Shown here: positions 1 through 52,930 of the stretch, one piece after another
Layout of the letters: each line of letters opens with the position of its first letter
How positions within the stretch are numbered: position 1 is the first letter of the stretch
Assembly: GCA_948099385.1 (NCBI GenBank)
Contig: CANUEZ040000204.1
Span: 496,001 to 560,000 of the forward strand
Source of the DNA: Fasciola hepatica
Taxonomy: Eukaryota; Platyhelminthes; Trematoda; Plagiorchiida; Fasciolidae
DNA length: 64,000 bases
Direction of reading: 5' to 3'
Program-made: the position numbers and the translations under genes
The notes under the pieces: model-generated
Databases searched by the model: none
What the model saw: the letters and a program-made list of their open reading frames with translations, nothing else
What the model was told of the DNA's origin: nothing

Positions 1-175
1 AATCCTATGTTCCAACACTTCGCCATTTATGGGCCTAAGTAAAACCAAGACATTCCCATTTGATCAATCCACACAAATTGCTGATATAATGCAATTGAGC
101 AGTAGCAGAGTAGATTTGTATAATATGATTCTCCATGCAGCTTGAACACTGAAGTGACCATTGAAAATGATGGAA

Positions 176-300
176 GCACTGTACAGCTGTTTGATCCCCT
201 AAGGGAATCATGAGCATTGCAAATGGACCGAGTCCACACGGGGACACGTACAAGGGTTGGGGTGAACGATTGTCAATAGAACACCCGAACCACAAGGCTA
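176..300 (-). ncRNA. Decayed hammerhead SINE module inside each monomer (first unit shown)
   Basis: Read on the minus strand, the monomer has a pol III A-box-like TAGCCTTGTGG at 300-290. It then has a degraded B-box position TGTACGTGTCC at 252-242, where the canonical form is GGTTCGANTCC, and a hammerhead-like block at 219-176. The hammerhead order is helix I strand GCAATG, core CTCATGA (214-208), stem II TTCCC/GGGAT, core CAAAC (193-189), loop AGCT, cleavage triplet GTA and helix I strand CAGTGC. Relative to the functional cores CTGATGA and GAAAC, G5 and G12 are both C, which should abolish catalysis. The same layout recurs every 423 bp to 14.9 kb. Assignment to the schistosome alpha-type SINE family is by recognition. 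The module is probably a fossil rather than an active gene. Confidence 0.6.
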
Positions 301-3300
301 TGCGATATGGCTCTGAACGCTTTGTTCAACATATACACTACATGATATAGCACACTCCTCAAACTGGCTTCGGCTTTCAAATTGGCTTTTTACAGTGAGA
401 ACCAAATTCTCGCACACCGATCCAATCCTATGTTCCATCACTTCTCCATTTATGGGCCTAAGTAAAACCAAGACATTCCCTTATGAAAAATCTACACAAA
501 TTGCTGATACAATGCAATTGAGCAGTAGCAGAGTAGATTTGTATAATATGATTCTCCATGCAGCTTGAACACTGAACTGACCATTGAAAATTATAGAAGC
601 ACTGTACAGCTGTTTGATCCCCTAAGGGAATCATGAGCATTGCAAATGGACCGAGTCCACACGGGGACACGTGCAATGGTTGGGGTGAACGATTGTCAAT
701 AGAACACCCGAACTACAGGACTATCAGATATGGGTCTGAAGTCTTTGTTCATTGTATAACGTTCATGATATAGCACTTTCCCCAAACTGCCTTCGGCTTT
801 CAAATTGGCTTTTTACGGTGAGAACCAAATTCTCGCACACCGATCCAATCCTATGTTCCATCACTTCTCCATTTATGGGCCTAAGTTCAACCAAGGCATT
901 CCCTTATGAACAATCCACACAAATTGCTGATACAATGCAATTGAGCAGTAGCAGAGTAGATTTGTATAATATGATTCTCCATGCAGCTTGAACACTGAAG
1001 TGACCATTGAAAATGATGGTAGCACCGTACAGCTGTTTGATCCCCTAAGGGAATCATGAGCATTGCAAATGGACCGAGTCCACACGGGGACACGTACAAG
1101 GGTTGGGGTGAACGATTGTCAATAGAACACCCGAACCACAAGGCTATGCGATATGGCTCTGAACGCTTTGTTCAACATATACACTACATGATATAGCACA
1201 CTCCCCAAACTGACTTCGGCTTTCAAATTGGCTTTTTACCGTGAGAAAAAAATTCTCGCACACCGATCCAATCCTATGTTCCATCACTTCTCCATTTATG
1301 GGCCTAACTGAAACCAAGGCATTCGCTAATGTACAATATACAAATATTGCTGATAAAATGCAATTGAGCAGAAGCAGAGTAGATTTGTATAATATGATTC
1401 TCCATGCAGCTTGAACACTGAACTGACCATTGAAAATTCTGGAAGCACTGTACAGCTGTTTGATCCCCTAAGGGAATCATTAGCATTGCAAATGGACCGA
1501 GTCCACACGGGGACACGTACAAGGGTTGGGGTGAACGATTGTCAATAGAACACCCGAACCACAAGGCTATCCGATATGGCTCTGAACGCTTTGTTCAACA
1601 TATACACTACATGATATAGCACACTCCCCAAACTGGCTTCGGCTTTCAAATTGGCTTTTTACAGTGAGAACCAAATTCTCGCACACCGATCCAATCCTAT
1701 GTTCCAACACTTCGCCATTTATGGGCCTAAGTAAAACCAAGGCATTCGCTGATGAACAAGGTACACAAATTGCTGATACAATGCAATTGAGCAGTAGCAG
1801 AGTAGATTTGTATAATATGATTCTCCATGCAGCTTGAACACTGAAGTGACCATTGAAAATGATGGTAGCACCGTACAGCTGTTTGATCCGCTAAGGGAAT
1901 CATGAGCATTGCAAATGGACCGAGTCCACACGGGGACACGTACAAGGGTTGGGGTGAACGATTGTCAATAGAACACTCGAACCACAAGGCTATCCGATAT
2001 GGCTCTGAACGCTTTGTTCAACATATACACTACATGATATAGCACACTCCCCAAACTGGCTTCGGCTTTCAAATTGGCTTTTTTCCTTGAGAACAAAATT
2101 CTCGCACACAGATCCAATCCTATGTTCCAACACTTCGCCATTTATGGGCCTAAGTAAAACCAAGGCATTCCCTTATGAACAATCCACACAAATTGCTGAT
2201 ATAATGCAATTGAGCAGTAGCAGAGTAGATTTGTATAATCTGATTCGCAATGCAGCTCGAACCCTGAAGTGACCATTGAAAATTCTGGAAGCACTGTACA
2301 GCTGTTTGATCCCCTAAGGGAATCATGAGCATTGCAAATGGACCGAGTCCACACGGGGACACGTACAAGGGTTGGGGTGAACGATTGTCAATAGAACACC
2401 CGAACCACAAGGCTATCCGATATGGCTCTGAACGCTTTGTACAACATATACACTACATGATATAGCACACTCCCCAAACTGGCTTCGGCTTTCAAATTGG
2501 CTTTTTGCAGTGAGAACCAAATTCTCGCACACAGATCCAATCCTATGTTCCAACACTTCGCCATTTATGGGCCTAAGTAAAACCAAGACATTCCCATGTG
2601 ATCAATCCACACAAATTGCTGATATAATGCAATTGAGCAGTAGCAGAGTAGATTTGTATAATATGATTCTCCATGCAGCTTGAACACTGAAGTGACCATT
2701 GAAAATGATGGTAGCACCGTACAGCTGTTTGATCCCCTAAGGGAATCATGAGCATTGCAAATGGACCGAGTCCACACGGGGACACGTACAAGGGTTGGGG
2801 TGAACGATTGTCAATAGAACACCCGAACCACAAGGCTATCCGATATGGCTCTGAACGCTTTGTTCAACATATACACTACATGATATAGCACACTCCCCAA
2901 ACTGGCTTCGGCTTTCAAATTGGCTTTTTACCGTGAGAAAAAAATTCTCGCACACCGATCCAATCCTATGTTCCATCACTTCTCCATTTATGGGCCTAAG
3001 TAAAACCAAGGCATTAGCTCATGAACAATCCACACAAATTGCTGATACAATGCAATTGAGCAGTAGCAGAGTAGATTTGTATAATATGATTCTCTATGCA
3101 GCTCGAACATTGAACTGACCATTGGAAATTCTGGAAGCACTGTACAGCTGTTTGATCCCCTAAGGGAATCATGAGCATTGCAAATGAACCGAGTCCACAC
3201 GGGGACACGTACAAGGGTTGGGGTGAACGATTGTCAATAGAACACCCGAACCACAAGGCTATGCGATATGGCTCTGAACGCTTTGTTCAACATATACACT

Positions 3301-5449
3301 ACATGATATAGCACACTCCTCAAACTGGCTTCGGCTTTCGCTTTCGCTTTTTACGGTGAGAACAAAATTCTCGCACACCGATCCAATCCTATGTTCCATC
3401 ACTTCTCCATTTATGGGCCTAAGTAAAACCAAGACATTCCCTTATGAAGAATCTACACAAATTGCTGATACAATGCAATTGAGCAGTAGCAGAGTAGATT
3501 TGTATAATATGATTCTCCATGCAGCTCGAACATTGAACTGACCATTGAAAATTCTGGAAGCACTGTACAGCTGTTTGATCCCCTAAGGGAATCATGATCA
3601 TTGCAAATGGACCGAGTCCACACGGGGACACGTACAAGGGTTGGGGTGAACGATTGTCAATAGAACACCCGAACCACAAGGCTATCCCATATGGCTCTGA
3701 ACGCTTTGTTCAACATATACACTACATGATATAGCACACTCCCCAAACTGGCTTCGGCTTTGAAATTGGCTTTTTACGGTGAGAACCAAATTCTCGCACA
3801 CCGATCCAATCCTATGTTCCATCACTTCTCCATTTATGGGCCTAAGTAAAACCAAGCCATTCCCTTATGAACAATCCACACAAATTGCTGATACAATGCA
3901 ATTGAGCAGTAGCAGAGTAGATTTGTATAATATGATTCTCCATGCAGCTTGAACACTGAAGTGACCATTGAAAATTCTGGAAGCACTGTACAGCTGTTTG
4001 ATCCCCTAAGGGAATCATGAGCATTGCAAATGGACCGAGTCCACACGGGGACACGTACAAGGGTTGGGGTGAACGATTGTCAATAGAACACCCGAACCAC
4101 AAGGCTATGCGATATGGCTCTGAACGCTTTGTTCAACATATACACTACATGATATAGCACACTCCCCAAACTGGCTTCGGCTTTCAAATTGGCTTTTTAC
4201 AGTGAGAACCAAATTCTCGCACACCGATCCAATCCTATGTTCCATCACTTCTCCATTTATGGGCCTAAGTAAAACCAAGCCATTCCCTTATGAACAATCC
4301 ACACAAATTGCTGATACAATGCAATTGAGCAGTAGCAGAGTAGATTTGTATAATATGATTCTCCATGCAGCTTGAACACTGAAGTGACCATTGAAAATTA
4401 TAGAAGCACTGTACAGCTGTTTGATCCCCTAAGGGAATCATGAGCATTGCAAATGGACCGAGTCCACACGGGGACACGTACAAGGGTTGGGGTGAACGAT
4501 TGTCAATAGAACACCCGAACCACAAGGCTATCCCATATGGCTCTGAACGCTTTGTTCAACATATACACTACATGATATAGCACACTCCCCAAACTGGCTT
4601 CGGCTTTCAAATTGGCTTTTTACGGTGAGAATCAAATTCTCGCACACCGATCCAATCCTATGTTCCAACACTTCTCCATTTATGGGCCTAAGTAAAACCA
4701 AGGCATTCGCTGATGAACAATGTACAAAAATTGCTGATACAATGCAATTGAGCAGTAGCAGAGTAGATTTGTATAATATGATTCTCTATGCAGCTCGAAC
4801 ATTGAACTGACCATTGAAAATTCTGGAAGCACTGTACAGATGTTTGATCCCCTAAGGGAATCATGAGCATTGCAAATGGACCGAGTCCACACGGGGACAC
4901 GTACAAGGGTTGGGGTGAACGATTGTCAATAGAACACCCGAACCACAAGGCTATCCGATATGGCTCTGAACGCTTTGTTCAACATATACACTACATGATA
5001 TAGCACACTCCCCAAACTGGCTTCGGCTTTCAAATTGGCTTTTTACGGTGAGAACCAAATTCTCGCACACCGATCCAATCCTATGTTCCATCACTTCTCC
5101 ATTTATGGGCCTAAGTTCAACCAAGGCATTCCCTTATGAACAATCCAAACAAATTGCTGATACAATGCAATTGAGCAGTAGCAGAGTAGATTTGTATAAT
5201 ATGATTCTCCATGCAGCTTGAACACTGAACTGACCATTGAAAATTTTGGAAGCAATGTACAGCTGTTTGATCCCCTAAGGGAATCATGAGCATTGCAAAT
5301 GGACCGAGTCCACACGGGGACACGTACAAGGGTTGGGGTGAACGATTGTCAATAGAACACCCGAACCACAAGGCTATGCGATATGGCTCTGAACGCTTTG
5401 TTCAACATATACACTACATGATATAGCACACTCCTCAAACTGGCTTCGG

Positions 5450-7564
5450 CTTTCGCTTTCGCTTTTTACGGTGAGAACAAAATTCTCGCACACCGATCCA
5501 ATCCTATGTTCCATCACTTCTCCATTTATGGGCCTAAGTAAAACCAAGCCATTCCCTTATGAAAAATCTACACAAATTGCTGATACAATGCAATTGAGCA
5601 GTAGCAGAGTAGATTTGTATAATCTGATTCGCAATGCAGCTCGAACCCTGAAGTGACCATTGAAAATGATGGAAGCACCGTACAGCTGTTTGATCCCCTA
5701 AGGGAATCATGAGCATTGCAAATGGACCGAGTCCACACGGGGACACGTACAAGGGTTGGGGTGAACGATTGTCAATAGAACACCCGAACCACAAGGCTAT
5801 CCGATATGGCTCTGAACGCTTTGTTCAACATATACACTACATGATATAGCACACTCCCTAAACTGGCTTCGGCTTTCAAATTGGCTTTTTGCAGTGAGAA
5901 CCAAATTCTCGCACACAGATCCAATCCTATGTTCCATCACTTCTCCATTTATGGGCCTAAGTAAAACCAAGACATTCCCATGTGATCAATCCACACAAAT
6001 TGCTGATATAATGCAATTGAGCAGAAGCAGAGTAGATTTGTATAATATGATTCTCCATGCAGCTTGAACACTGAACTGACCATTGAAAATGATGGAAGCA
6101 CCGTACAGCTGTTTGATCCCCTAAGGGAATCATGAGCATTGCAAATGGACCGAGTCCACACGGGGACACGTGCAATGGTTGGGGTGAACGATTGTCAATA
6201 GAACACCCGAACCACAGGACTATCAGATATGGGTCTGAAGTCTTTGTTCATTGTATAACGTTCATGATATAGCACTTTCCCCAAACTGCCTTCGGCTTTC
6301 AAATTGGCTTTTTACGGTGAGAACCAAATTCTCGCACACCGATCCAATCCTATGTTCCATCACTTCTCCATTTATGGGCCTAAGTTCAACCAAGGCATTC
6401 CCTTATGAACAATCCACACAAATTGCTGATACACGGCAACTGAGCAATAGCAGAGTAGATTTGTATAATATGATTCTCCATGCAGCTTGAACACTGAACT
6501 GACCATTGAAAATTCTGGAAGCACTGTACAGCTGTTTGATCCCCTAAGGGAATCATGAGCATTGCAAATGGACCGAGTCTACACGGGGACACGTACAAGG
6601 GTTGGGGTGAACGATTGTCAATAGAACACCCGAACCACAAGGCTATCCGATATGGCTCTGAAAGCTTTGTTCAACATATACACTACATGATATAGCACAC
6701 TCCTCAAACTGGCTTCGGCTTTCGCTTTCGCTTTTTACGGTGCGAACAAAATTCTCGCACACCGATCCAATCCTATGTTCCATCACTTCTCCATTTATGG
6801 GCCTAAGTTCAACCAAGACATTCCCTTATGAACAATCCACACAAATTGCTGATACAATGCAATTGAGCAGTAGCAGAGTAGATTTGTATAATATGATTCT
6901 CCATGCAGCTTGAACACTGAACTGACCATTGAAAATGATGGAAGCACTGTACAGCTGTTTGATCCCCTAAGGGAATCATGAGCATTGCAAATGGACCGAG
7001 TCCACACGGGGACACGTACAAGGGTTGGGGTGAACGATTGTCAATAGAACACCCGAACCACAAGGCTATCCGATATGGCTCTGAACGCTTTGTTCAACAT
7101 ATACACTACATGATATAGCACACTCCCTAAACTGGCTTCGGCTTTCAAATTGGCTTTTTGCAGTGAGAACCAAATTCTCGCACACAGATCCAATCCTATG
7201 TTCCAACACTTCGCCATTTATGGGCCTAAGTAAAACCAAGACATTCCCATGTGATCAATCCACACAAATTGCTGGTATAATGCAATTGAGCAGTAGCAGA
7301 GTAGATTTGTATAACCTGATTCGCAATGCAGCTCGAACCCTGAAGTGACCATTGAAAATTCTGGAAGCACTGTACAGCTGTTTGATCCCCTAAGGGAATC
7401 ATGAGCATTGCAAATGGACCGAGTCCACACGGGGACAGGTACAAGGGTTGGGGTGAACGATTGTCAATAGAACACCCGAACCACAAGGCTATGCGATATG
7501 GCTCTGAACGCTTTGTTCAACATATACACTACATGATATAGCACACTCCTCAAACTGGCTTCGG
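5450..7564. repeat. Five-monomer (2,115-bp) higher-order repeat, copy A
   Basis: This block starts at a monomer variant in which the usual TTTCAAATTGGC is replaced by CTTTCGCTTTCGC. Its first four monomers carry a series of rare variants that recur in the same order exactly 2,115 bp downstream. These include the AAAATCTACAC variant, GTGCAATGG at 6,170, CGGCAACTGAGCAATAG at 6,433 and GAGTCTACACGG at 6,572. The fifth monomer differs between the two copies, so the duplication is either incomplete or has been overwritten by conversion. Confidence 0.7.
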
Positions 7565-9679
7565 CTTTCGCTTTCGCTTTATAAGGTGAGAACCAAATTC
7601 TCGCACACCGATCCAATCCTATGTTCCATCACTTCTCCATTTATGGGTCTAAGTAAAACCAAGGCATTCCCTTATGAAAAATCTACACAAATTGCTGATA
7701 CAATGCAATTGAGCAGTAGCAGAGTAGATTTGTATAATCTGATTCGCAATGCAGCTCGAACCCTGAAGTGACCATTGAAAATGATGGAAGCACTGTACAG
7801 CTGTTTGATCCGCTAAGGGAATCATGAGCATTGCAAATGGACCGAGTCCACACGGGGACACGTACAAGGGTTGGGGTGAACGATTGTCAATAGAACACCC
7901 GAACCACAAGGCTATCCGATATGGCTCTGAACGCTTTGTTCAACATATACACTACATGATATACCACACTCCACAAACTGGCTTCGGCTTTCAAATTGGC
8001 TTTTTGCAGTGAGAACCAAATTCTCGCACACAGATCCAATCCTATGTTCCAACACTTCGCCATTTATGGGCCTTAGTAAAACCAAGACATTCCCATGTGA
8101 TCAATCCACACAAATTGCTGATATAATGCAATTGAGCAGTAGCAGAGTAGATTTGTATAATATGATTCTCCATGCAGCTTGAACACTGAACTGACCATTG
8201 AAAATGATGGAAGCACCGTACAGCTGTTTGATCCCCTAAGGGAATCATGAGCATTGCAAATGGACCGAGTCCACACGGGGACACGTGCAATGGTTGGGGT
8301 GAACGATTGTCAATAGAACACCCGAACCACAGGACTATCAGATATGGGTCTGAAGTCTTTGTTCATTGTATAACGTTCATGATATAGCACACTACCCAAA
8401 CTGGCTTCGGCTTTCAAATTGGCTTTTTACGGTGAGAACCAAATTCTCGCACACCGATCCAATCCTATGTTCCATCACTTCTCCATTTATGGGCCTAAGA
8501 TCAACCAAGGCATTCCCTTATGAACAATTCACACAAATTGCTGATACACGGCAACTGAGCAATAGCAGAGTAGATTTGTATAATATGATTCTCCATGCAG
8601 CTTGAACACTGAACTGACCATTGAAAATTCTGGAAGCACTGTACAGCTGTTTGATCCCCTAAGGGAATCATGAGCATTGCAAATGGACCGAGTCTACACG
8701 GGGACACGTACAAGGGTTGGGGTGAACGATTGTCAATAGAACACCCGAACCACAAGGCTATCCGATATGGCTCTGAACGCTTTGTTCAACATATACACTA
8801 CATGATATAGCACACTCCCCAAACTGGTTTCGGCTTTCAAATTGGCTTTTTACGGTGAGAAACAAATTCTCGCACACCGATCCAATCCTATGTTCCATCA
8901 CTTCTCCATTTATGGGCCTAAGTTCAACCAAGGCATTCCCTTATGAACAATCCACACAAATTGCTGATACAATGCAATTGAGCAGTAGCAGAGTAGATTT
9001 GTATAATCTGATTCTCCATGCAGCTTGAACACTGAACTGACCATTGAAAATTCTGGAAGCACTGTACAGCTGTTTGATCCACTAAGGGAATCATGAGCAT
9101 TGCAAATGGACCGAGTCCACACGGGGACACGTACAAGGGTTGGGGTGAACGATTGTCAATAGAACACCCGAACCACAAGGCTATCCGATATGGGTCTGAA
9201 CGCTTTGTTCAACATATACACTACATGATATAGCACACTCCCCAAACTGCCTTCGGCTTTCAAATTGGCTTTTTAGGGTGAGAACCAAATTCTCGCACAC
9301 CGATCCAATCCTATATTCCACCAGTTCTCCATTTATGGGCCTAAGTAAAACCAAGCCATTCCCTTATGAAAAATCTACACAAATTGCTGATACAATGCAA
9401 TTGAGCAGTAGCAGAGTAGATTTGTATAATATGATTCTCCATGCAGCTTGAACACTGAACTGACCATTGAAAATTATGGTAGCACCGTACAGCTGTTTGA
9501 TCCCCTAAGGGAATCATGAGCATTGCAAATGGACCGAGTCCACACGGGGACACGTACAAGGGTTGGGGTGAACGATTGTCAATAGAACACCCGAACCACA
9601 AGGCTATCCGATATGGCTCTGAACGCTTTGTTCAACATATACACTACATGATATAGCACACTCCGCAAAATGGCTTCGG
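7565..9679. repeat. Five-monomer (2,115-bp) higher-order repeat, copy B
   Basis: This is the second copy of the block that starts at 5,450. It begins with the same CTTTCGCTTTCGC junction and carries GTGCAATGG at 8,285, CGGCAACTGAGCAATAG near 8,548 and GAGTCTACACGG near 8,687. All lie 2,115 bp from their counterparts. The same junction variant also occurs at 3,335 and 9,680, which are again 2,115-bp steps, suggesting that the five-monomer register once covered a wider stretch. Confidence 0.7.
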
Positions 9680-12600
9680 CTTTCGCTTTCGCTTTTTACG
9701 GTGAGAACCAAATTCTCGCACACAGATCCAATCCTATGTTCCAACACTTCGCCATTTATGGGCCTAAGTAAAACCAAGACATTCCCATGTGATCAATCCA
9801 CACAAATTGCTGATATAATGCAATTGAGCAGTAGCAGAGTAGATTTGTATAACATGATTCTCCATGCAGCTTGAACACTGAAGTGACCATTGAAAATGAT
9901 GGAAGCACCGTACAGCTGTTTGATCCCCTAAGGGAATCATGAGAATTGCAAATGGACCGAGTCCACACGGGGACACGTGCAATGGTTGGGGTGAACGATT
10001 GTCAATAGAACACCCGAACCACAGGACTATCAGATATGGCTCTGAACGCTTTGTTCAACATATACACTACATGATATAGCACACTCCACAAACTGGCTTC
10101 GGCTTTCAAATTGGCTTTTTGCAGTGAGAACCAAATTCTCGCACACAGATCCAATCCTATGTTCCAACACTTCGCCATTTATGGGCCTAAGTAAAACCAA
10201 AACATTCCCAAGTGATCAATCCACACAAATTGCTGATATAATGCAATTGAGCAGTAGCAGAGTAGATTTGTATAATCTGATTCGCAATGCAGCTCGAACC
10301 CTGAGGTGACCATTGAAAATTCTGGAAGCACTGTACAGCTGTTTGATCCCCTAAGGGAATCATGAGCATTGCAAATGGACCGAGTCCACACGGGGACACG
10401 TACAAGGGTTGGGGTGAACGATTGTCAATAGAACACCCGAACCACAAGGCTATCCGATATGGCTCTGAACGCTTTGTTCAACATATACACTACATGATAT
10501 AGCACACTCCCTAAACTGGCTTCGGCTTTCAAATTGGCTTTTTGCAGTGAGAACCAAATTCTCGCACACAGATCCAATCGTATGTTCCAACACTTCGCCA
10601 TTTATGGGCCTAAGTAAAACCAAGACATTCCCATGTGATCAATCCACACAAATTGCTGGTATAATGCAATTGAGCAGTAGCAGAGTAGATTTGTATAACC
10701 TGATTCGCAATGCAGCTCGAACCCTGAAGTGACCATTGAAAATTCTGGAAGCACTGTACAGCTGTTTGATCCACTAAGGGAATCATGAGCATTGCAAATG
10801 GACCGAGTCCACACGGGGACACGTACAAGGGTTGGGGTGAACGATTGTCAATAGAACACCCGAACCACAAGGCTATCCGATATGGCTCTGAACGCTTTGT
10901 TCAACATATACACTACATGATATAGCACACTCCCCAAACTGGCTTCGGCTTTCAAATTGGCTTTTTGCAGTGAGAACCAAATTCTCGCACACAGATCCAA
11001 TCCTATGTTCCAACACTTCTCCATTTATGGGCCTAAGTAAAACCAAGACATTCCCATGTGATCAATCCACACAAATTGCTGATATAATGCAATTGAGCAG
11101 TAGCAGAGTAGATTTGTATAATCTGATTCGCTATGCAGCTCGAACCCTGAAGTGACCATTGAAAATTCTGGAAGCACTGTACAGCTGTTTGATCCCCTAA
11201 GGGAATCATGAGCATTGCAAATGGACCGAGTCCACACGGGGACACGTACAAGGGTTGGGGTGAACGATTGTCAATAGAACACCCGAACCACAAGGCTATC
11301 CGATATGGCTCTGAACGCTTTGTTCAACATATACACTACATGATATAGCACACTCCCTAAACTGGCTTCGGCTTTCAAATTGGCTTTTTGCAGTGAGAAC
11401 CAAATTCTCGCACACAGATCCAATCCTATGTTCCAACACTTCGCCATTTATGGGCCTAAGTAAAACCAAGACATTCCCATGTGATCAATCCACACAAATT
11501 GCTGGTATAATGCAATTGAGCAGTAGCAGAGTAGATTTGTATAACATGATTCTCCATGCAGCTTGAACACTGAACTGACCATTGAAAATGATGGAAGAAC
11601 TGTACAGCTGTTTGATCCCCTAAGGGAATCATGAGCATTGCAAATGGACCGAATCCACACGGGGACACGTACAAGGGTTGGGGTGAACGATTGTCAATAG
11701 AACACCCGAACCACAGGACTATCAGATATGGGTCTGAAGTCTTTGTTCATTGTATAACGTTCATGATATAGCACTTTCCCCAAACTGCCTTCGGCTTTCA
11801 AATTGGCTTTTTACGGTGAGAACCAAATTCTCGCACACCGATCCAATCCTATGTTCCATCACTTCTCCATTTATGGGCCTAAGATCAACCAAGGCATTCC
11901 CTTATGAACAATCCACACAAATTGCTGATACAATGCAATTGAGCAGTAGCAGAGTAGATTTGTATAATATGATTCTCCATGCAGCTTGAACACTGAACTG
12001 ACCATTGAAAATGATGGAAGCACTGTACAGCTGTTTGATCCCCTAAGGGAATCATGAGCATTGCAAATGGACCGAGTCCACACGGGGACACGTACAAGGG
12101 TTGGGGTGAACGATTGTCAATAGAACACCCGAACCACAAGGCTATCCGATATGGCTCTGAACGCTTTGTTCAACATATACACTACATGATATAGCACACT
12201 CCCCAAACTGGCTTCGGCTTTGAAATTGGCTTTTTACGGTGAGAACCAAATTCTCGCACACCGATCCAATCCTATGTTCCATCACTTCTCCATTTATGGG
12301 CCTAAGTGAAACCAAGGCATTCGCTAATGTACAATATACAAATATTGCTGATAAAATGCAATTGAGCAGTAGCAGAGTAGATTTGTATAATCTGATTCGC
12401 AATGCAGCTCGAACCCTGAAGTGACCATTGAAAATTCTGGAAGCACTGTACAGCTGTTTGATCCCCTAAGGGAATCATGAGCATTGCAAATGGACCGAGT
12501 CCACACGGGGACACGTACAAGGGTTGGGGTGAACGATTGTCAATAGAACACCCGAACCACAAGGCTATGCGATATGGCTCTGAACGCTTTGTTCAACATA

Positions 12601-14968
12601 TACACTACATGATATAGCACACTCCCCAAACTGGCTTCGGCTTTCAAATTGGCTTTTTACGGTGAGAAACAAATTCTCGCACACCGATCCAATCCTATGT
12701 TCCACCACTTCTCCATTTATGGGCCTAAGTAAAACCAAGCCATTCCCTTATGAAAAATCTACACAAATTGCTGATACAATGCAATTGAGCAGTAGCAGAG
12801 TAGATTTGTATAATATGATTCTCCATGCAGCTTGAACACTGAAGTGACCATTGAAAATGATGGAAGCACTGTACAGCTGTTTGATCCCCTAAGGGAATCA
12901 TGAGCATTGCAAATGGACCGAGTCCACACGGGGACACGTACAAGGGTTGGGGTGAACGATTGTCAATAGAACACCCGAACCACAAGGCTATCCGATATGG
13001 GTCTGAACGCTTTGTTCAACATATACACTACATGATATAGCACACTCCCCAAACTGGCTTCGGCTTTCAAATTGGCTTTTTACGGTGAGAAACAAATTCT
13101 CGCACACCGATCCAATCCTATGTTCCACCACTTCTCCATTTATGGGCCTAAGTAAAACCAAGCCATTCCCTTATGAAAAATCTACACAAATTGCTGATAC
13201 AATGCAATTGAGCAGTAGCAGAGTAGATTTGTATAATATGATTCTCCATGCAGCTTGAACACTGAACTGACCATTGAAAATGATGGAAGCACCGTACAGC
13301 TGTTTGATCCCCTAAGGGAATCATAAGAAATGCAAATGGACCGAGTCCACACGGGGACACGTGCAATGGTTGGGGTGAACGATTGTCAATAGAACACCCG
13401 AACCACAGGACTATCAGATATGGGTCTGAAGTGTTTGTTCATTGTATAACGTTCATGATATAGCACTTTCCCCAAACTGCCTTCGGCTTTCAAATTGGCT
13501 TTTTAGGGTGAGAACCAAATTCTCGCACACAGATCCAATCCTATGTTCCAACACTTCTCCATTTATGGGCCTAAGTGAAACCAAGGCTTTCGCTAATATA
13601 CATTATACAAATATTGCTGATAAAATGCAATTGAGCAGTAGCAGAGTAGATTTGTATAATCTGATTCGCAATGCAGCTTGAACACTGAACTGACCATTGA
13701 AAATTATGGAAGCACTGTACAGCTGTTTGATCCCCTAAGGGAATCATGAGCATTGCAAATGGACCGAGTCCACACGGGGACACGTACAAGGGTTGGGGTG
13801 AACGATTGTCAATAGAACACCCGAAACACAAGGCTATGCGATATGGCTCTGAACGCTTTGTTCAACATATACACTACATGATATAGCACACTCCCCAAAC
13901 TGGCTTCGGCTTTCAAATTGGCTTTTTAGGGTGAGAACCAAATTCTCGCACACCGATCCAATCCTATGTTCCATCACTTCTCCATTTATGGGCCTAAGTT
14001 CAACCAAGGCATTCCCTTATGAAAAATCTACGCAAATTGCTGATACAATGCAATTGAGCAGTAGCAGAGTAGATTTGTATAATCTGATTCGCAATGCAGC
14101 TCGAACCCTGAAGTGACCATTGAAAATGATGGAAGCACTGTAGAGCTGTTTGATCCCCTAAGGGAATCATGAGCATTGCAAATGGACCGAGTCCACACGG
14201 GGACACGTACAAGGGTTGGGGTGAACGATTGTCAATAGAACACCCGAACCACAGGACTATCAGATATGGGTCTGAAGTCTTTGTTCATTGTATAACGTTC
14301 ATGATATAGCACTTTCCCCAAACTGCCTTCGGCTTTCAAATTGGCTTTTTACGGTGAGAACCAAATTCTTGCACACCGATCCAATCCTATGTTCCATCAC
14401 TTCTCCATTTATGGGCCTAAGTTCAACCAAGGCAATCCCTTATGAACAATCCACACGAATTGCTGATACAATGCAATTGAGCAGTAGCAGAGTAGATTTG
14501 TATAATATGATTCTCCATGCAGCTTGGACACTGAACTGACCATTGAAAATTATGGAAGCACTGTACAGCTGTTTGATCCCCTAAGGGAATCATGAGCATT
14601 GCAAATGGACCGAGTCCACACGGGGACACGTACAAGGGTTGGGGTGAACGATTGTCAATAGAACACCCGAACCACAATGCTATCGATATGGGTCTCAACG
14701 CTTTGTTCAACATATACACTACATGATATAGCACACTCCCCAAACTGGCTTCGGCTTTCAAATTGGCTTTTTACGGTGAGAACCAAATTCTCGCACACCG
14801 ATCCAATCCTATGTTCCATCACTTCGCCATTTATGGGCCTAAGTAAAAACAAGGCATTCCCTTATGAACAATCCACACTAATTGCTGATAAAATGCAATT
14901 GAGCAGTAGCAGAGTAGATTTGTATAATCTGATTCTCCATGCAGCTTGAACACTGAACTGACCATTTA

Positions 14969-15000
14969 GATAGGGCACTCATATTTCGATAGGTCACTCA
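14969..15000. repeat. Short duplicated motif at the satellite/palindrome junction
   Basis: GATAGGGCACTCATATTTC is followed immediately by the imperfect copy GATAGGTCACTCATAATTT. The right outer end of the palindrome (31,451-31,458) carries a single complement of this motif, GCCCTATC. The left edge has therefore gained a copy or the right edge has lost one. The duplication lies directly against the last satellite base and marks the breakpoint region. Confidence 0.8.
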
Positions 15001-17267
15001 TAATTTGTTGGGGCAAGTGCACAGTTCATTACACGTTATATTCATGTTCATACGTATATCCAATATACATATATATCTGATGGAACTCTACAAATCGGCT
15101 ACTGTTATTCATAAAAAACCGTTTACGAGACACACTCAAACTGCAGTTAGATTGGGTGCTGACTTGTTTTGGGCATTTCACCAGGATATAATAGAAGAAG
15201 AAATAAAATGACTCTTTTCAACCAAATGGCTTACCACGCCGCAATCATATGCACTCTTTTATAACTCTCGCAAGATTGTGATAGAAAAACAGGAGCCGCT
15301 ACAAAATGTGAACCATACTGATGTTGCTATAGAACTATAATGTCGTGAATTGAGTCATGACACAATGGGCATTATATTCGTTTGTGCCCGCAAGTTGCAT
15401 GTGTTATAGAGCTATCAGTGAACTGATGTTACAGGGTATCACACAATCACTTCCGACCTGTCATTCGTCCTGTATTTGTATTTGAATCTGTAGCACACAT
15501 TTCGCGATTGCACTATCTGTGCAAATCATGCGGGTGAGGTGTAAGATTACAGCTCGTCGATTGGGAATGCACTCGACCGCACCGAGTCAGGTTTAGAAGA
15601 GCAGCAGCTAGTGTTACTTGATTTGCTCTTCGGTGGGGCAAGTGTGTATAAGTCCTCCTCTAAATTCTTGGAAACTATAAGGAAATACGTCCAAATGCGG
15701 GCTGGCAAGCTGCACATGTTTTGGATTGGTCATGTGCATACAACACTGCAGTACTGTTATTAATTGTCCAGTGGGACCAGTAAACTTTGAGCCATTTTAC
15801 CCTGGGCTTTCATTCTAGCTACCGGATTTGATTCGTTTGCTCTGATATGCTTACAGAGATTGATGCCGCGGGAAACTATTTTCTTCACCTGGTAAAATTA
15901 CAAATAAAGTAATAAATAACTAAGAATAATAAATATCAAGCTTTTGCTACTCACCGCCTCTTGTATCTTGAACAGATGGCCACTCGTGATTATGTGAAAA
16001 AAAAGTATAAACTAAAAACTCTTCATATATTTATATTGCCGAACGGGTATTTCTCAGGATACATCTGAGTAATTATGTACCTACAATCCTTCTTCGTTGT
16101 TTGGTGCACGGTGCAAACTCTATTCAAATAGCTAGTCAACTCCTTAAACAGTCCCAAGAACAATCAAAACAACTTGTGCCGTTCTTTTCATAGTGGATCA
16201 AATAATAAAAGATGCATATCGTCATAAGTATATGAGAGTTATGTCGATATAACAGTGATGCTTATTATCATGGACGCTGTACAAGCTAAAGTACACGCCA
16301 AAGAATAGAAACCCGTGCTATTTTGTCAAGTATGGACGTCTGAAAGTTCTCTCGGTACAACTCGACTTTGAATTGCTTTTTAGATTCAGTTGATATGACA
16401 CGATTCTCACTTCTGATAAGGCAAATCAAACAATCAATAGGTGTTTCTATGAGTTTTAGTGCTCAGCACACAGTCAATGATGAATAGGGAGCTGTTCCAC
16501 TTAACAAGCAAAATCAAGAAAAATATAGATATTTTTTGGGAGGTTGAACATATTCAGTCGCATGTTCTTAGTTGAAAACTGTCAAAGGTGTAAGGTATTC
16601 TCTTTTCAGAGAATTCCTCTTCCAGAAAATATGTCCATCTTATGTATCAATTTACTTGCCAATGACGTGTTCTATTTTGGTCAATGGCGCTCCTTCATTC
16701 TAACTCAAAATAAGTAATGTTATAGAAATCTTCAACGTTCAAATCAGGAATCATTACATGCTTGATTTGGGATTTAAATTGTCATTCCTGAATACTTCAG
16801 ACAAAAATTTAAATTTTCATTTATAATAAATGTGGCCTTTTAATTGAACAAATGATATCCCCGGTAGGATTTCAAAGCACGCTCCACCAGGTGGTTCGTT
16901 GTGTTGCCACCACCGACAGTGTATTACACAGCGGGGATCTAACGCGTTCTGCTCTTTAATGTCCATTTACTAATTCTCCTAGCCAATTTTCGCGTCCAGG
17001 ATTTTCCGTTTACCAGCTGTTTTTATCATATCAATAAATTACCAAGCACCGTGCAGCTCCACTGAAGAGATGATTCGTTTACGCACTGTGTGAGCAAGGC
17101 AAAGCCGTTCAGAACCATCGTAAATTGAGTGGAGCAACAAGTGTGAGCAAAATATAAAAGTACATAACTGTGCCTTGCCTGATCCTAAATCCAGCTATAT
17201 CAAAGGATTCACTGCCCCAGACACATTTAGGTTCGAAATACGTGACCGAACCAAAACAGTGCATAGT

Positions 17268-17980
17268 ACGGCTGGGTGTAACAGAAATATGGTGGAACAA
17301 GCTGTTACCCAGGTGTGTAAAACATTGGTTCATATAGACACATGAACAAAATCTATGAGGGTATTTTCATTATGAATAGGGAAATGGGTTAGGCATTGTA
17401 TGTTCTAACATATGCGTCTGTGTCGCAGTGGTCGAAATTTTCTCGGGCGATTTTGTGAGGAAGTCACTACAGGTATGAATGAGTTGACGAATGGATGAAT
17501 AGGTGAATCAGCTAACGAGTGAATCAATATAATGTGTTCATGTGAAAAGCTGGGCGTAAATTTCATTGGTTTACACGGTAACCAGAATATTATTGTCCGG
17601 AATTACTCCATGCACAAACCGTACATCGACGAATGCTGGCAAGCTTGCAATTATCTTCAGAAGGATCTTGGTGCATTTACGAAGCCATTTTTTATCGCTC
17701 ATTCAAATAACACGCATTTTGGATATTGAATGGATCACTGGAAACGTCATTCATTTATAATCCTATTGTAACGGGAACAAACTACCATCTGTTGGTGTAC
17801 TGGTTGGCTCCAACCCCTTTGAATGTGGGTTTTACTCAGCACTGGAATTGGCATCTTTACAGTTAAAATATTCATCGTTGCCTAATCAACATTACCAAGC
17901 TTGGCGTTGTGGAATGCCTTGTGATACGCTGCCCAATTTCCACGGACCTCTGGCTGACCTCTGAGGAATATCTCGAAAGA
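17268..17980. other. Segment present only in the left arm (about 710 bp)
   Basis: The two arms match up to GTGCATAGT at 17,267 and again from AAAATATTACC near 17,980. Between these points the left arm has about 710 bp, while the right arm has roughly 11 bp reading, in left-arm orientation, GCATAGAATAA. The right arm thereby shows a TGCATAG tandem duplication at the joint, which looks like repair filler and favours a deletion in the right arm over an insertion here. The segment includes a loose run of TGAATNAG-like words around 17,475-17,530 and no recognisable gene. Confidence 0.85.
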
Positions 17981-19429
17981 AAATATTACCCCAAAGGAGA
18001 AAGGGTCCACTGGGAGCCTAAATAAAACGCAAAACACCGTGCTTAGAAAAGTTTTCAGAAAAAACAGCTCAGCAAACATTGTTCAGCCAACCATGATTCG
18101 TCTATAAGTTACTTCAGTATTTGGGAAATCGCCATGCAACAGTGGTCCAGTGCATCCGTGGACATTCAAAAATGCTGTAGGATTAGTCGGTAGAAGCAAT
18201 TTACTGTATTCCACCCGGAAATGCCGAAGATGGGCACAAAATGGCATCATCAGAATTCACCTTTAGTAGTTGAAGTCGTTTTGGTATTCAATGGTTTTCC
18301 GAAGAACTACTGTTATTCACCAAACAAACGCACTCGATGCAGAACTGTTTCTTTCTTTACCACGGTAAATCTTAGTAAGCGCTTTCGGCAACAATGAAAA
18401 ACAAATCCTCAAATAATTTGTTCCATTTAACAACAAAGTTGCAAACAGTTATAGTAAGTCTAGTAATTTTTCAACGCGTATACCTTTATCTCTGACTCAC
18501 CTTTGAGTGTCACCGTAGTCTCTGACCTGTGTGGATGATCTTGTGACGTGAGCTGGGATTGCCAACCGTAATTTCAGTAGTCTTCAGTTTACACCAGTAT
18601 CAATGGACTTAATCTGATCTCTCGCTTTCATGCGTAGCCTTCAGTCCATGTCGCATTCAGTAGGGCAAACTCGGCTTTTGACCAAATTCCACCCACAGCC
18701 GAGTACTGTTTTCAAGGAAATCAGTGTGTGGGGTGAATGATCTTCGGTCTGGGACGTGAAGCCTCAATGACGCTATAGCCTGATTGACCAACACGTGCTG
18801 TTCACGTGGTGGCTGATCCCAAAAACATTCGCCGGTAAAGAGCCCAACCTCACCTATCCATTCCGGCCCATGTACACCATCATCTGGTTGCAGACACTGC
18901 AATGAGTGTCACTTTCATAGTTTCTGCCTGTTGAAGCGCAACTGATACAAACACCTTTCCCTGTTCGGAAACAAATGTGATATGTGTCAACCCCAGAGCA
19001 TCCAAGAAACATGAGTCCCCAGTCAGCTCTAGCTGCCTGCCTGTTCTGACAAGTCATCCGTCCATAACATGACGACTGCAAGTACCTAAATGTTGGAAGC
19101 TTGTAAATGTTTAGACCAATGGCCAGTGTGCTCGCATCCAACAGGACTCTTTGTCCGAAATCTTAAACAGATCGGAGAAAATATAGAATGAAAGCGGTCG
19201 GACAGAAACCCAGCCTCAACAAAATTTTTTCACTCGAGCTCAATGGGCCAGAACTGATTTTATTACAGCCTTTTATGAGAGGGACATTTCTGCAACCTGC
19301 ATTGTCAACAAATCCTATATAAACCTAGGATTAGCTGGACTAAATCGATAGAAAATTTAATTTTTTAGCAGTTTATGCAACCAAATGAAAACAACATCTG
19401 CATCTCCGTAAAAAAATCAGTTACTATGA

Positions 19430-31463: not shown

Positions 31464-31899
31464 TAGAGGGGACATTTGCGGGCCTAGATCCAATAATCTT
31501 ATCCATATTGAAAAAAATCTGTCAATGAAAAAGCACTTGCCCAAATAATGATGATAATAACAATAGAAACACTGCAAATAACCAGCAGAATATCAGTTAC
31601 AACCACTAATAACAAAACTATTACTGGAAGTGCAGGATGTGTAAATCCTTCATAATTCTTTTATGCTGAAAAGACTAGCTGAAAAAAGTACGGTTTCGCA
31701 CCGGAAAAATCCAGGAATGGTAGGTTTCACCATACATAAAAGTTGGTACTTATTTTACCTCCTGGTCTACTGGAAACTCATGCAGAAGGTTGGTCTAATG
31801 TACACCACTATAGTTATGCAAGTTGTAGTGGAATGTTTTCGTAATAATCCTTGTGATTTATTTTGATACGGCGGGTATATTTGATTAAAATTCGGAACT

Positions 31900-35500: not shown

Positions 35501-37595
35501 TGAATAACAGGTGGAGAGACAACAGCTTCTCAGAGGTCTGACCCCAAAAGGTGGTACAATTCTGAATGTGGAGGTTATCGTCTTTGAAAAGTTCCTTTTA
35601 AAGAACATCGATCACAGAAAAACGATTTTTATACAGGTCACATCTTATGGAAACAAAAGTAAAGAACCTGATGTGCTGCCCTAACTAACGTGTCTGTAGG
35701 CTTCCTCATTCCGTTCCTTTTTCCTATCATTATTTTTATATAAAAATGACACCAAGATGAGAACGATTGATATTCGAAGATGAGTGTATCAAGATTTGAA
35801 AGGTCCAGTGAGATTTCGATTTAACGGTATGGTAGACGGAAAAATCTATAGCAGTTGAGCTTTATTTTTCATCAGGGTATCAGTGTGTCTGCATCGCGTC
35901 TATTGGAAATTAACTGTGTGGCCTTGACAGCGTTCGGTTTTTCAGCAGATATTTCTGCTCGCACGAGTCTGGTTGTTAGATGCACGTGACTACTTTACAT
36001 AAAATCGTGCTTCATATCGGGCCTAAACTATTTACAGGAGAACCTTTAAATGTATGACTGAGTCATCAAAGTCCACGGAGTGCAACCCTGTTACCGAAGT
36101 GTTTGATGATGAAGCCTCGATTGGCCTTCTTCTTTTATTCTGTATTTATCCACTAAGGCTGCCAGTTTTGTGATTAGATTACAACCGATATGAACCGCTC
36201 CACCACAGCAAGCAAATTAAAGGAATAATTTCAAACGAATCGATCATGAGAGTCGACACATCACTATTTGTTCCAGTTAAAAATGGACCAAATCAACACG
36301 AAAGAGTCAGCCCTAGAATCCCCCATCCCACATTCACTAGGTTTTACCCAACTATTTTCACAGTGTATTTGTATATAATTCATTCTGGGCATCTTGGCTA
36401 CACCATGTATTAGGTTTTGTTTTCAGCAGAATTGCAAGGTGCTAGAAAAGTGGAACCGTTGCACCTCCAAATTAACCTCATTTGTTCCCAATGGATTCCT
36501 TCTTTATCCCTAAAGCATCATAGAAAGCGCAGGAATACATCTGTTTTTCCATCTCGAAAGTGAAACGCTCAGGCTTGCGTTATTCTTTTGTAATGCACTA
36601 CAACTGATCAAAATCTGTCGACAACTTACCATTGTGCAAATGTATAATACTCATGATGGAAATAGGTAACTAGTTTAGATATTGTATTATAGAGTTCCCG
36701 TTTGCCAGTAACTGATCGAGCGTATACTTCATGGTCATTCTGACAAAACTATGATTCAAACATCCAATGCAACTAAACTGAAGAAGAATTATTGAAAAAT
36801 CAGTAACAGACTTTCCACTCTCTGAATTTGGATAAAGTTACGATGGCAGTGGTTGTGCAGGTCACAAAATTATTACAATTTGCAAGTGCATTTTTAGGAA
36901 CACGAAACGAAAGTTCGGTACCCGTGAAATCAGCTGAACTCCCAAGTTTAACAATCTATTCGGTGCTTCAGATGCGGGATTGTAAAGGCCTACCGATTGT
37001 GGGCAATAGGTACATACTGCTCCACACACACTTGACAGGATCACGTAGAAAAACTGTGCTCAACGAAATCAAGTAAAGCGGGATTGGCAGATTGTCAAAC
37101 AACCCAACTGCTGTATTTGATACGAGGCTTCAGTGGAGCAAACATATGTGCTCATCAGACCGTAAGGAAAAACATTATCTGTTCAAGTACTAAGAAATAA
37201 CGTTTTTTTATAATATGACTTATCATCCAGTGTGAATGTCCAACTTATCAATAAAAACAGTGGAAATAATCAACGGGTATTCATTCCACATCAAAGACCA
37301 TCAACAGTGCATGACCACTGGACCCAAATGGGAGCTCATGTCAACGAATGTTACTTAAACGCCCTAATCGCAAAGCCATTTAGGTTGAGTTTCAACAAGT
37401 TACTGAGCTTATTTTTCAAATGAAATATACCCCTTACGAATGTAAGCAAATAATTTTTCGCTTAGCGCGGGACATATGATGTACGGTGTATCTGTCGTGA
37501 CTTAACTAAATGGCTTGGTATGCGGAAAATGGTGCTAACACTTCAGACCAGTGTCGGAAGTGCTCTTTACTCTGCCATACTTGAATTCAGTTTTT
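32511..37595. other. AT-rich sequence without a recognisable gene
   Basis: Only short, stop-limited frames (under about 85 codons) occur on either strand, and none shows a motif I recognise. There is no obvious tandem array and I see no tRNA- or rRNA-like segment. It is probably intergenic or intronic sequence containing TE remains too decayed to read. Confidence 0.5.
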
Positions 37596-37599
37596 CGTG

Positions 37600-37790
37600 G
37601 AGTCCCAAAGTCGATAATCCAGCAGTTAGGTGTTCGTCCCACAGTCGTGTACTTTGGGTTTGAGTCGTTCGGAAATCTTGATTGATGTGCAATGCTGGTG
37701 ATTATCAATAAGGATAAAACAGCTGTACCATGACCCTTTGGTTTTCAATGGTGATGTGTGTGCTCAAACTACACGATCAATCACGATATG
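37600..37790 (+). mobile_element. Dispersed hammerhead-SINE copy related to the satellite
   Basis: On the plus strand a degenerate A-box-like CAGCAGTTAGGTG near 37,620 is followed by a B-box-like GGTTTGAGTCG (37,657-37,667). After these come GATGTGCAATG, the core CTGGTGA (37,695-37,701), a stem II TTATC/GGATA-type arm pair, AAAAC (37,716-37,720), AGCTGTA and then GGTTTTCAATGGT. Every block has a counterpart, in the same order, in the minus strand of the 423-bp monomer and in the 52-kb relic. The core changes (A6 to G, G12 to A) should make the ribozyme inactive. The 3' end is not clear. It supports a dispersed SINE origin for the satellite unit. Confidence 0.6.
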
Positions 37791-49900: not shown

Positions 49901-50590
49901 AATTTTCTATGCGCCCCTAATTCTGGCCTCATAAGGCAGATGCTTACTGTTGCCGTAATGGCCAATGTTCGCAGCTTGGTTGTTCTAAAAATATGCCCTA
50001 GGAAGTGGTAGACTATAGGTAAAGTCGAATGGAGGTCTGTTGACTGATTGGTTTCAAATAAAATTGAGATAATGGGACTTGAAGTGGAACCCTTTCCTCC
50101 GTATCCAAGCCATCGTAGGTGGTTTTCCTCAATGAGTTTGAGTAGCTGCCTTGTGGTTCGAGTTTGAATTATATTTCCAAAAGACCTTTACGTTTCAGGA
50201 TTCTTGCCACATCCTTATTGAATATAAACAGTAGGCTCACAATTACCATTGATTGAAACTAGAGCAGTAATAAACTAGTTTGCAGAAGTCGTTTCTGGTC
50301 ACCAATCTTAGATTGATTTGAAGTTATTCAATCCAACATATAATAAATGGGACGTTTATCATTGATTTCGAACTTGTACACCACTGAAAACCGTGATGAC
50401 ACTGTAAAATCAAAACACCTACAACAGATATGGTAATCAAGCTCTGTGTGTTCTTTACCGGAAAGTCTTCGTTTTACATATGCCAATAGAGTGAAGCGAT
50501 CCAGCATGGAAGTTTGTAACCGTGAGGGAAATGCTCGGCCAAAATTCCAAGTCAGTACTGGAAAGGCGCTACTTAACGTGGTCTACAAGT
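40990..50590. other. Long AT-rich stretch without a recognisable gene
   Basis: Many short frames occur, the largest being 141 codons (plus, 43,814-44,239), 132 codons (minus, 43,123-43,521), 130 codons (minus, 48,186-48,578) and 127 codons (minus, 46,434-46,817). None has a motif, domain or splice pattern I can defend. A TAG/AAT-rich low-complexity patch lies near 44,860-44,920 with a TATATATA patch just before it. Real exons cannot be excluded, but I cannot call any. Confidence 0.45.
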
Positions 50591-50594
50591 TCAA

Positions 50595-50770
50595 TAAGCC
50601 GTTAGGAGCAAGCCCGTATGTCTCTGTCATTTGGGTTTTCGAGTCACCCTGGGTTCGAGCCTCAGTTCAGGCTCCTTGCATAGCACTGCTGGTGATTCCC
50701 CACAAGAATGAAACAGTTGAACAATACCACCATTCAAACATTCCCAATGCATGATAAATCTTAGTATATG
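50595..50770 (+). mobile_element. Dispersed hammerhead-SINE copy with conserved B box
   Basis: On the plus strand, TAAGCCGTTAGG near 50,596 occupies the A-box position. GGTTCGAGCC (50,652-50,661) is a good pol III B box about 50 bp further on. A hammerhead-like block follows: helix I strand GCACTG, core CTGGTGA (50,689-50,695), stem II TTCCC/AGAAT, GAAAC (50,710-50,714) and AGTTGA. GAAAC is intact, but A6 is G and the cleavage-side stem III base is changed, so activity is unlikely. CCAATGCATGATAAATCTT near 50,742 may correspond to the CATGACGAATCAT part of the satellite relatives. Confidence 0.55.
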
Positions 50771-52317: not shown

Positions 52318-52930
52318 AATGCTACTGACTGCACTTAATCGCACTGGAAACACCACAACCAAATTTAATTTTTGTCAAAATATGATTCGTCATGCTGCTT
52401 CAACTCTCAACTCTCCAATGAAAACCATGAATGAAAGGTACAGCTGGTTACTTCTTGTTGGGAATCAGTAGCAATGCACATCCACCAAATCCCCACGGGG
52501 ACTCGAACCGGAGATGAATGATTGTGAATCGAATACGCGAACCACAAGCCCTTCTGGGCTGGCTCTCAACTGTTTGTTGAACACCTGCACTACATGATAT
52601 AGCACGCTTCCGTCACTTACTCTGAACAGTACCAACCCGCTTCCCGCATAGCGATCGACTCCTATGATGGGTGGCTTCTCTGTACCAGCCTAAGTTCAAC
52701 AAAGCCGTTCAGCTTTATGAACAACCTACAGAACGTGGCAGCTATGTGCACATGAGTGGTATGGCATTGAATTTTGTGTAATGATTCATCATGCAGCTTG
52801 AACGCTCAACTCGGCATTGAAATCCATGGAAGCACTGTACAGATGTTTCATCCTTTTTAGGAGTCATCAGCAACGCACATCCAACAAATCAATACGGGGA
52901 ATCAAACCGAGGGTTATCAGCTATCAAAAC
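52318..52930 (-). mobile_element. Diverged partial dimer of the satellite/SINE unit
   Basis: Both a full and a partial copy of the 423-bp unit can be followed here, greatly diverged. Shared blocks include CACTACATGATATAGCAC, CCTAAGTTCAAC, CATGCAGCTTGAAC and GGAAGCACTGTACAG. Equivalent positions in the two copies are about 399 bp apart (52,499 and 52,898). On the minus strand copy 1 has a canonical B box GGTTCGAGTCC (52,509-52,499) and an A-box-like AGGGCTTGTGG (52,552-52,542). Copy 2 has the B box GGTTTGATTCC (52,908-52,898). The leftmost 40 bp are uncertain. It is a single locus, not an array, and is older than the array by sequence divergence. Confidence 0.8.
52832..52880 (-). ncRNA. Near-intact type I hammerhead ribozyme sequence
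   Basis: In copy 2 of the 52-kb dimer the minus strand reads helix I strand GCGTTG, core CTGATGA (52,870-52,864), stem II TCCT/AGGA closed by an A-rich loop, core GAAAC (52,849-52,845), a four-base stem III loop ATCT, GT, cleavage base A and helix I strand CAGTGC. Helix I pairs fully if two G-U pairs are allowed. Stem III is the minimal two-pair form known from schistosome hammerheads. The predicted cut lies between the complements of 52,838 and 52,837 after GUA, which obeys the NUH rule. The one clear defect is a C/U mismatch at the first stem II pair (10.1-11.1), so activity may be reduced. Confidence 0.65.

Follow-up and report, generated by a model that had tools for sequence, protein, structure and literature searches.

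Hammerhead ribozymes carried in tandem repeats of 150-450 bp are known from newts, crickets, schistosomes and other animals (PMC7229834, PMC2837043, PMC8490949), and satellites derived from short interspersed elements (SINEs) are known in reptiles (PMC10702118). Here we compare with these systems a 64,000-nucleotide stretch of the Fasciola hepatica genome (the window; positions 496001-560000 of contig C204, in an assembly of 1.5 Gb), which opens with a satellite array of 423-bp monomers. The monomer has probably arisen by decay and amplification of a non-coding retroelement of 400 bp that is dispersed in the same genome and in which a tRNA-Val(CAC)-like head is followed by a putative type I hammerhead. 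A preliminary description of the window, made from the sequence alone, had taken the conversion of a ribozyme-bearing SINE into a satellite to be undescribed. This was too strong, because hammerhead satellites have already been published, among them degenerate ones from schistosomes, and so have SINE-derived satellites. What seems to be new is the insertion anatomy of the satellite's living relatives, together with an array that seemingly landed in one step; the satellite itself resembles known kinds.

Metazoan non-long-terminal-repeat (non-LTR) retrozymes likewise carry type I hammerheads in tandem repeats of 150-450 bp, found as dimers to 62-mers in a coral and represented by 126,247 motifs in axolotl (PMC7229834). 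Movement through circular RNA has been proposed for them, with Penelope-like elements as strong candidates for moving them on the grounds that the two share hammerheads, form tandem copies and coexist (PMC7229834, PMC7761336). The fluke differs from the retrozymes as described in that insertion scars could be read (3′ ends at two fixed sites, both sites being represented in most pairs, arms joined head to head, and a target duplication around an array of ~19 units), and in that the window satellite is without an intact ribozyme core. In the open-licence literature searched, we found no report of such scars for retrozymes. The SMalpha/W-element satellites of Schistosoma mansoni are also hammerhead-bearing, SINE-like repeats organized in satellite families, with altered cores in some copies (PMC8490949). 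Compared by description, they belong to another host family, the unit of W36.2_W001 is 335 bp against 400 and 423 bp here, and in the fluke satellite the core is lost from all 162 monomers sampled. The same count sets the fluke apart from the pDo500 satellite of Dolichopoda cave crickets, which also carries a hammerhead but in which most sequences could still fold actively (PMC2837043). Tandem repeats born from SINEs occur in squamate reptiles, where they arise from portions of SINEs and have not amplified in the manner of typical satellites (PMC10702118), whereas here the whole unit is involved and makes up ~2% of the assembly. Penelope-like elements share head-to-head inverted copies, partial tandems and an optional tail of 30-40 bp, which in a rotifer sits on one inverted terminal repeat (PMC3846280, PMC11167929). 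In vitro, both strands are cut and extended by a purified Penelope protein, which starts reverse transcription at two sites separated by an interval that corresponds to the 30-40 bp tail (PMC11167929). In contrast to those elements, the fluke element encodes no protein and has a tRNA-like head.

What moves animal hammerhead 'retrozymes' has been an open question, for which the fluke scars offer a direct and countable test. The scars also suggest how long tandem arrays could arise at once and not via slow unequal exchange. The satellite, for its part, appears to have outlived its ribozyme.

The satellite monomer and its tRNA-hammerhead relative

On its minus strand, the entire monomer is colinear with a 400-bp majority unit taken from one array of the dispersed element, with 318 of 397 aligned positions identical, and its extra length is chiefly accounted for by one 18-bp and one 5-bp insertion. 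When a partial element consensus (295 bp) was aligned with the doubled monomer, 211 of 259 positions were identical (248 bits), while none of 1,000 mononucleotide shuffles scored above 26.5 bits, so the likeness of the monomer to the element is beyond chance; a comparison with dispersed and genomic copies had been suggested in the preliminary description. Descent from a ribozyme-bearing, SINE-like element, as proposed there, is therefore strongly supported, since the minus strand follows an element from this genome in whose units Rfam recognizes first a tRNA and then a type I hammerhead.

In a genome search with the hammerhead model RF00163, 74 candidates were scored (288,504 at first look) and 38 of them matched, with 37 over the cut-off and a best score of 40 bits. 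Thirty of these loci were cut out, and 28 fall into one family that matches the monomer. The other two (L010 and L033, positions 1501-1545 in each) represent a second, distinct family of hammerheads, in which a tRNA-like stretch was seen by eye upstream. In two arrays of the element (L055 and L056), the Rfam tRNA model lists 24 units, 23 of them at 33.1 bits (cut-off 29) and one at 28.3 bits, and Hammerhead_1 is likewise found 24 times, each at 28.8 bits and below its cut-off of 34. ARAGORN calls tRNA-Val(CAC) 18 times in L055 and five times in L056; counted by locus, it does so in just 1 of the 16 loci of one set and 3 of the 7 element loci of another. The dispersed element can accordingly be described as carrying a predicted type I hammerhead (core, three helices and Rfam score) behind the tRNA-like head, with A and B boxes, of a tRNA-derived SINE. 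Its flanks show no poly(A) by eye, and a few copies end in TA repeats. As in metazoan non-LTR retrozymes, the hammerhead stands in tandem units, here of 398-402 bp in arms of up to 4,425 bp (11 units). Target-site duplications of such retrozymes, when present, exceed 4 bp, and the fluke element has flank repeats of at least 9 bp at 20 of 62 insertions. Together with the mechanism set out below, we consider it likely that the element is a 'non-LTR retrozyme' of the SINE-alpha sort.

In the satellite, by contrast with its dispersed relatives, the sequences of the ribozyme core and of the RNA polymerase III box are decayed. The order given in the preliminary description for the minus strand, an A-box-like TAGCCTTGTGG, a B-box position, a hammerhead layout and a GTA site, is indeed present. 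Its 'full' hammerhead did not survive closer inspection, because the core guanines G5 and G12 are lost and the B box is broken. Both residues read C in the minus-strand consensus, and among 162 full monomers, drawn from the window array and from the fetched stretches L043-L048 and L050 (L049 yielded none), G5 was kept in none and G12 in none, so that the CUGANGA...GAAA core of a type I hammerhead is absent. Changes at such residues are established to abolish or slow cutting (PMC8490949). The B box is disrupted by a 5-bp insertion and by substitutions, and in the predicted minimum-free-energy fold of the monomer the former core bases sit inside an 8-bp stem II hairpin. At gathering score Rfam found nothing in the window, and even at E ≤ 10 it found no hammerhead in the array; the sole hammerhead match in the window at that threshold lies in a dispersed copy at 52832-52876 on the minus strand (19.4 bits, E 7.5, under the cut-off of 34). 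In two 10-kb satellite stretches (L043 and L046), neither a tRNA nor a hammerhead was found by Rfam at E ≤ 1, and ARAGORN found no tRNA.

Positions 140-240 show little variation within the window array, as functional constraint on what was once the ribozyme segment might produce. This reading was rejected, as the pattern fails in the 162 monomers from several arrays, and the low variation is taken as local history. As a separate, post hoc observation that is unused in our argument, differences between the satellite consensus and the element on the ribozyme strand include C>G (or G>C) at TCA/TGA in 8 of 15 sites, against 3 of 102 other C:G sites. The same signature is found in pooled dispersed copies (17/397 versus 19/2,529) and is absent from within-array variation (3/646 versus 88/5,605).

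Insertion anatomy of the dispersed element

Arms of the element were mapped to the unit in the RF00163 loci, in two loci from the listing of an intact-type 30-mer and in 38 further fetched stretches; several stretches of the first batch were picked for close pairs or arrays among the listed places, and the second batch was drawn from part of the places that remained. After loci with overlapping or repeated insertions were dropped (L026, L053, L031, L023, L080 and L081), the final set held 62 loci and 101 arms; the two loci of the other hammerhead family, L010 and L033, contributed no arm. The 3′ ends fall at unit positions 58-72 or 88-103 in 87 of the 101 arms, where intervals covering 31 of 400 positions would take 7.8 under a uniform expectation, and the two sites lie ~33 bp apart. 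Only 3 of the 101 arms have their 5′ end inside the same two intervals. Neighboring arms stand head to head in 37 cases and tail to tail in 2. Both ends lie in the intervals in 27 of the 37 head-to-head pairs, and 25 of these 27 carry one end of each kind, whereas shuffling of the ends gave a mean of 13.75 mixed pairs and reached 25 in 3 of 200,000 rounds. With broader intervals, and with L023 still included, 25 of 26 pairs were mixed.

The junctions and flanks of these insertions also carry a record. An overlap of 1-6 bp is present at 26 of the 37 inner junctions. Direct repeats of at least 9 bp flank 20 of the 62 insertions, whereas only 1.0% of mismatched flanks carry them; among these 20, TA repeats account for three and an AAT repeat for one. 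Repeats of at least 7 bp flank 31 of 62, against 6.1%. In all, the element shows the arrangement expected of Penelope-type insertion, in which two 3′ ends lie 30-40 bp apart and one of two arms joined head to head carries the tail. Of the 31 arms in a hold-out set of 20 loci, 27 fit the intervals (23 of 27 without L080 and L081), and neighboring arms were head to head in ten cases and tail to tail in one. The ten pairs comprised five mixed, three alike (L079-L081, one insertion repeated) and two unclassified. L079, L080 and L081 have an identical head-to-head structure at three places on two contigs, and therefore probably represent a duplicated segment.

The most telling structure is a head-to-head insertion (L055; C8:10422500-10431900) in which an arm of ~8 units faces one of ~11 units on the opposite strand, in all ~19 units and 7,572 bp, flanked by the 12-bp direct repeat ACTAAATCTTGT. 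Of its full units, 13 of 17 are identical to the majority, and the changes are private except for one that is found once per arm; the plus arm ends at approximately position 50, outside the strict interval. In a second array (L056), all five full units are identical. The simplest reading of L055 is a multi-unit product inserted in one event, with later expansion as an alternative and with a unit count that is the assembler's. Across 65 scored copies (L056-L092 and three window stretches, without L055; a biased sample, as the copies were chosen by similarity), the core CTGANGA with GAAA is kept in 48.

Proposed mechanism and alternatives

We consider it probable that these insertions stem from Penelope-type, two-ended priming on circular or multimeric RNA, and that the satellite was subsequently born from one of them. 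The element would be transcribed from its tRNA-like promoter, its hammerhead would cut the transcript, and the RNA would become circular or multimeric, all of which we infer. A Penelope-type reverse transcriptase would then prime from both ends of a staggered break. Copying would begin at one or the other of two sites ~33 nt apart and would sometimes proceed along the template for many units, and the two complementary DNAs would join head to head, often at a microhomology of 1-6 bp. Priming at both ends would leave 3′ ends outward and 5′ ends together, as is observed for the mapped arms. Such insertions would amount to ready-made tandem arrays, one of which, after losing its ribozyme and promoter, may have expanded by recombination into the satellite. 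The satellite would now spread as DNA, with no need for the ribozyme. A more specific proposal, that satellite arrays are born in a single retrotransposition step in which an RNA circle is copied repeatedly from both ends of the break, ~19 near-identical units landing together, with the satellite as a descendant without the ribozyme, is put forward only tentatively.

A candidate autonomous GIY-YIG element is present in the genome, as judged by its domain. Among 150 scored candidates (302 at first look), 90 GIY-YIG matches were found, seven of them in open frames of 828-829 amino acids, and the domain lies near the frame end in both copies that were read. For matches no more than 5 kb apart, a listing read by eye gave ten head-to-head pairs, no tail-to-tail pairs and seven direct ones.

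Several points weigh against this explanation. The loci were picked for ribozyme similarity, the strict intervals were fixed after the first locus set, and the share of head-to-head arms is biased because some stretches were chosen for having two close places. An end lies outside both intervals in 10 of the 37 head-to-head pairs, which are thus unclassified, and of the independent classifiable pairs in the hold-out only 5 of 6 are mixed. Intermediates between an element array and the satellite were not found, no systematic search having been made. No partner Penelope was found in the one Penelope-like family compared (two copies), as its 3′ end has no sequence in common with the ends of the element; the only strong match in that comparison was a separate old copy of the element in a flank. 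Furthermore, a Penelope element inserts in vitro without needing its ribozyme (PMC11167929), and a long linear array transcript could replace the circle as template. Such a template, a linear multimeric read-through of an array with no circle, would leave Penelope-type mobilization intact. It is in keeping with elements that already stand in tandem arrays and with the insertion of uncut RNA by a Penelope element in vitro (PMC11167929), but retention of the core in the scored copies, biased as that sample is, would be expected if cutting matters, and we regard the linear route as rather unlikely.

Other explanations depart further from two-ended priming by a Penelope-type enzyme. If the dispersed copies were ordinary SINEs driven by a long interspersed element (LINE), their head-to-head forms would be 5′ inversions. 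Twin priming, by which such inversions arise, also yields an inverted copy on the 5′ side, and the outer end of the inverted arm would vary. The tRNA-like head and the inverted 5′-side copy would both suit this origin. Yet where a variable outer end is expected, two fixed sites account for the ends of 87 of 101 arms, and pairs mostly have one of each; no poly(A) tail was seen by eye in the flanks inspected, and multi-unit arms reach 4.4 kb. A LINE-driven origin is improbable on these grounds. If the satellite were the older of the two and had released the dispersed elements, one unit would likewise be common to both, but core and cloverleaf are present in the dispersed units while G5 and G12 are absent in 162 of 162 monomers, and regain is far less likely than loss, which makes this order of events very unlikely. 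The hammerhead and tRNA layout could, lastly, be a chance resemblance in a satellite with no true ribozyme ancestry, as the absence of Rfam matches in the array might suggest; given the 248-bit alignment to an element that Rfam reads as tRNA and hammerhead, and colinearity over the full length, we give this almost no credence.

Features of the window and genome-wide abundance

The satellite array and the other relatives of the element in the window are listed in Table 1. The dispersed relatives that had been noticed at 37.6, 50.6 and 52.5 kb were confirmed, and a further fragment was found.

Table 1. Satellite and element-related features of the window
Feature	Positions	Strand	Remarks
Satellite array, 35.4 monomers of 423 bp	1..14966	minus (ribozyme-descended strand)	Tandem Repeats Finder; 94% matches
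Decayed hammerhead, first monomer	176..220	minus	Recurs about every 423 bp; core G5 and G12 both C
Broken B-box position, first monomer	242..253	minus	
A-box-like TAGCCTTGTGG, first monomer	290..300	minus	Remnant of tRNA-like head
Inverted fragment of the same element	37203..37265	minus	76%; 3′ end at unit position 70
Old dispersed copy	37628..37783	plus	72% to unit; core CTGGTGA and AAAA
Old dispersed copy	50434..50723	plus	68% to unit; core CTGGTGA
Dispersed relative, 1.34-unit partial tandem	52379..52914	minus	Offset 402 bp; outer 3′ end at unit position 61
Hammerhead of the 52379..52914 copy	52832..52876	minus	CUGAUGA and GAAA letters kept; weak RF00163 match, 19.4 bits, under cut-off

The array runs on leftward beyond the window, with 14 further full monomers at C204:490001-496000 (L050). 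Identity between monomers of the window array is flat across lags 1-14, and no higher-order repeats were found over the lags compared. None of ten open frames from the window matched a Pfam family at E ≤ 0.1. A large inverted repeat (14978-31468) begins 12 bp past the end of the satellite. Its arms are 99% identical at 14978-17267/29179-31468 and 100% identical at 17989-22857/24290-29158, with a gap of 1,432 bp between the inner arms, and it is either a recent palindrome or an assembly fold-back.

A 30-mer from the dead ribozyme of the satellite occurs at 75,562 places in the genome with up to three mismatches, and its reversed control at none. If each place of this short pattern stands for a whole monomer of 423 bp, the satellite would occupy ~32 Mb, or ~2.1% of the 1.5-Gb assembly. 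The pattern differs from the intact-type sequences compared at 6-7 places (counted by eye). The intact-type 30-mer was found at 46,336 places (control 0), and as it covers the core only in part, not all of these are intact. A 22-mer from the A box (99,155 places) was rejected as a count of the satellite because the element differs from it by only two bases, under the three mismatches allowed, and the two are pooled. Contig ends lie in the same satellite on C204 (1-50 kb and 3.00-3.022 Mb) and at the start of C205, and the arrays therefore appear to break the assembly. COX1, translated with the trematode mitochondrial code, shows 94% identity to its best hit, which is named Fasciola gigantica, and 84% to Fasciolopsis, placing the host among the fasciolid flukes and outside the schistosomes. 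On C429, C468, C471 and other small contigs, COX1 recurs every 14-15 kb, and mitochondrial DNA therefore seems to have been assembled as head-to-tail multimers.

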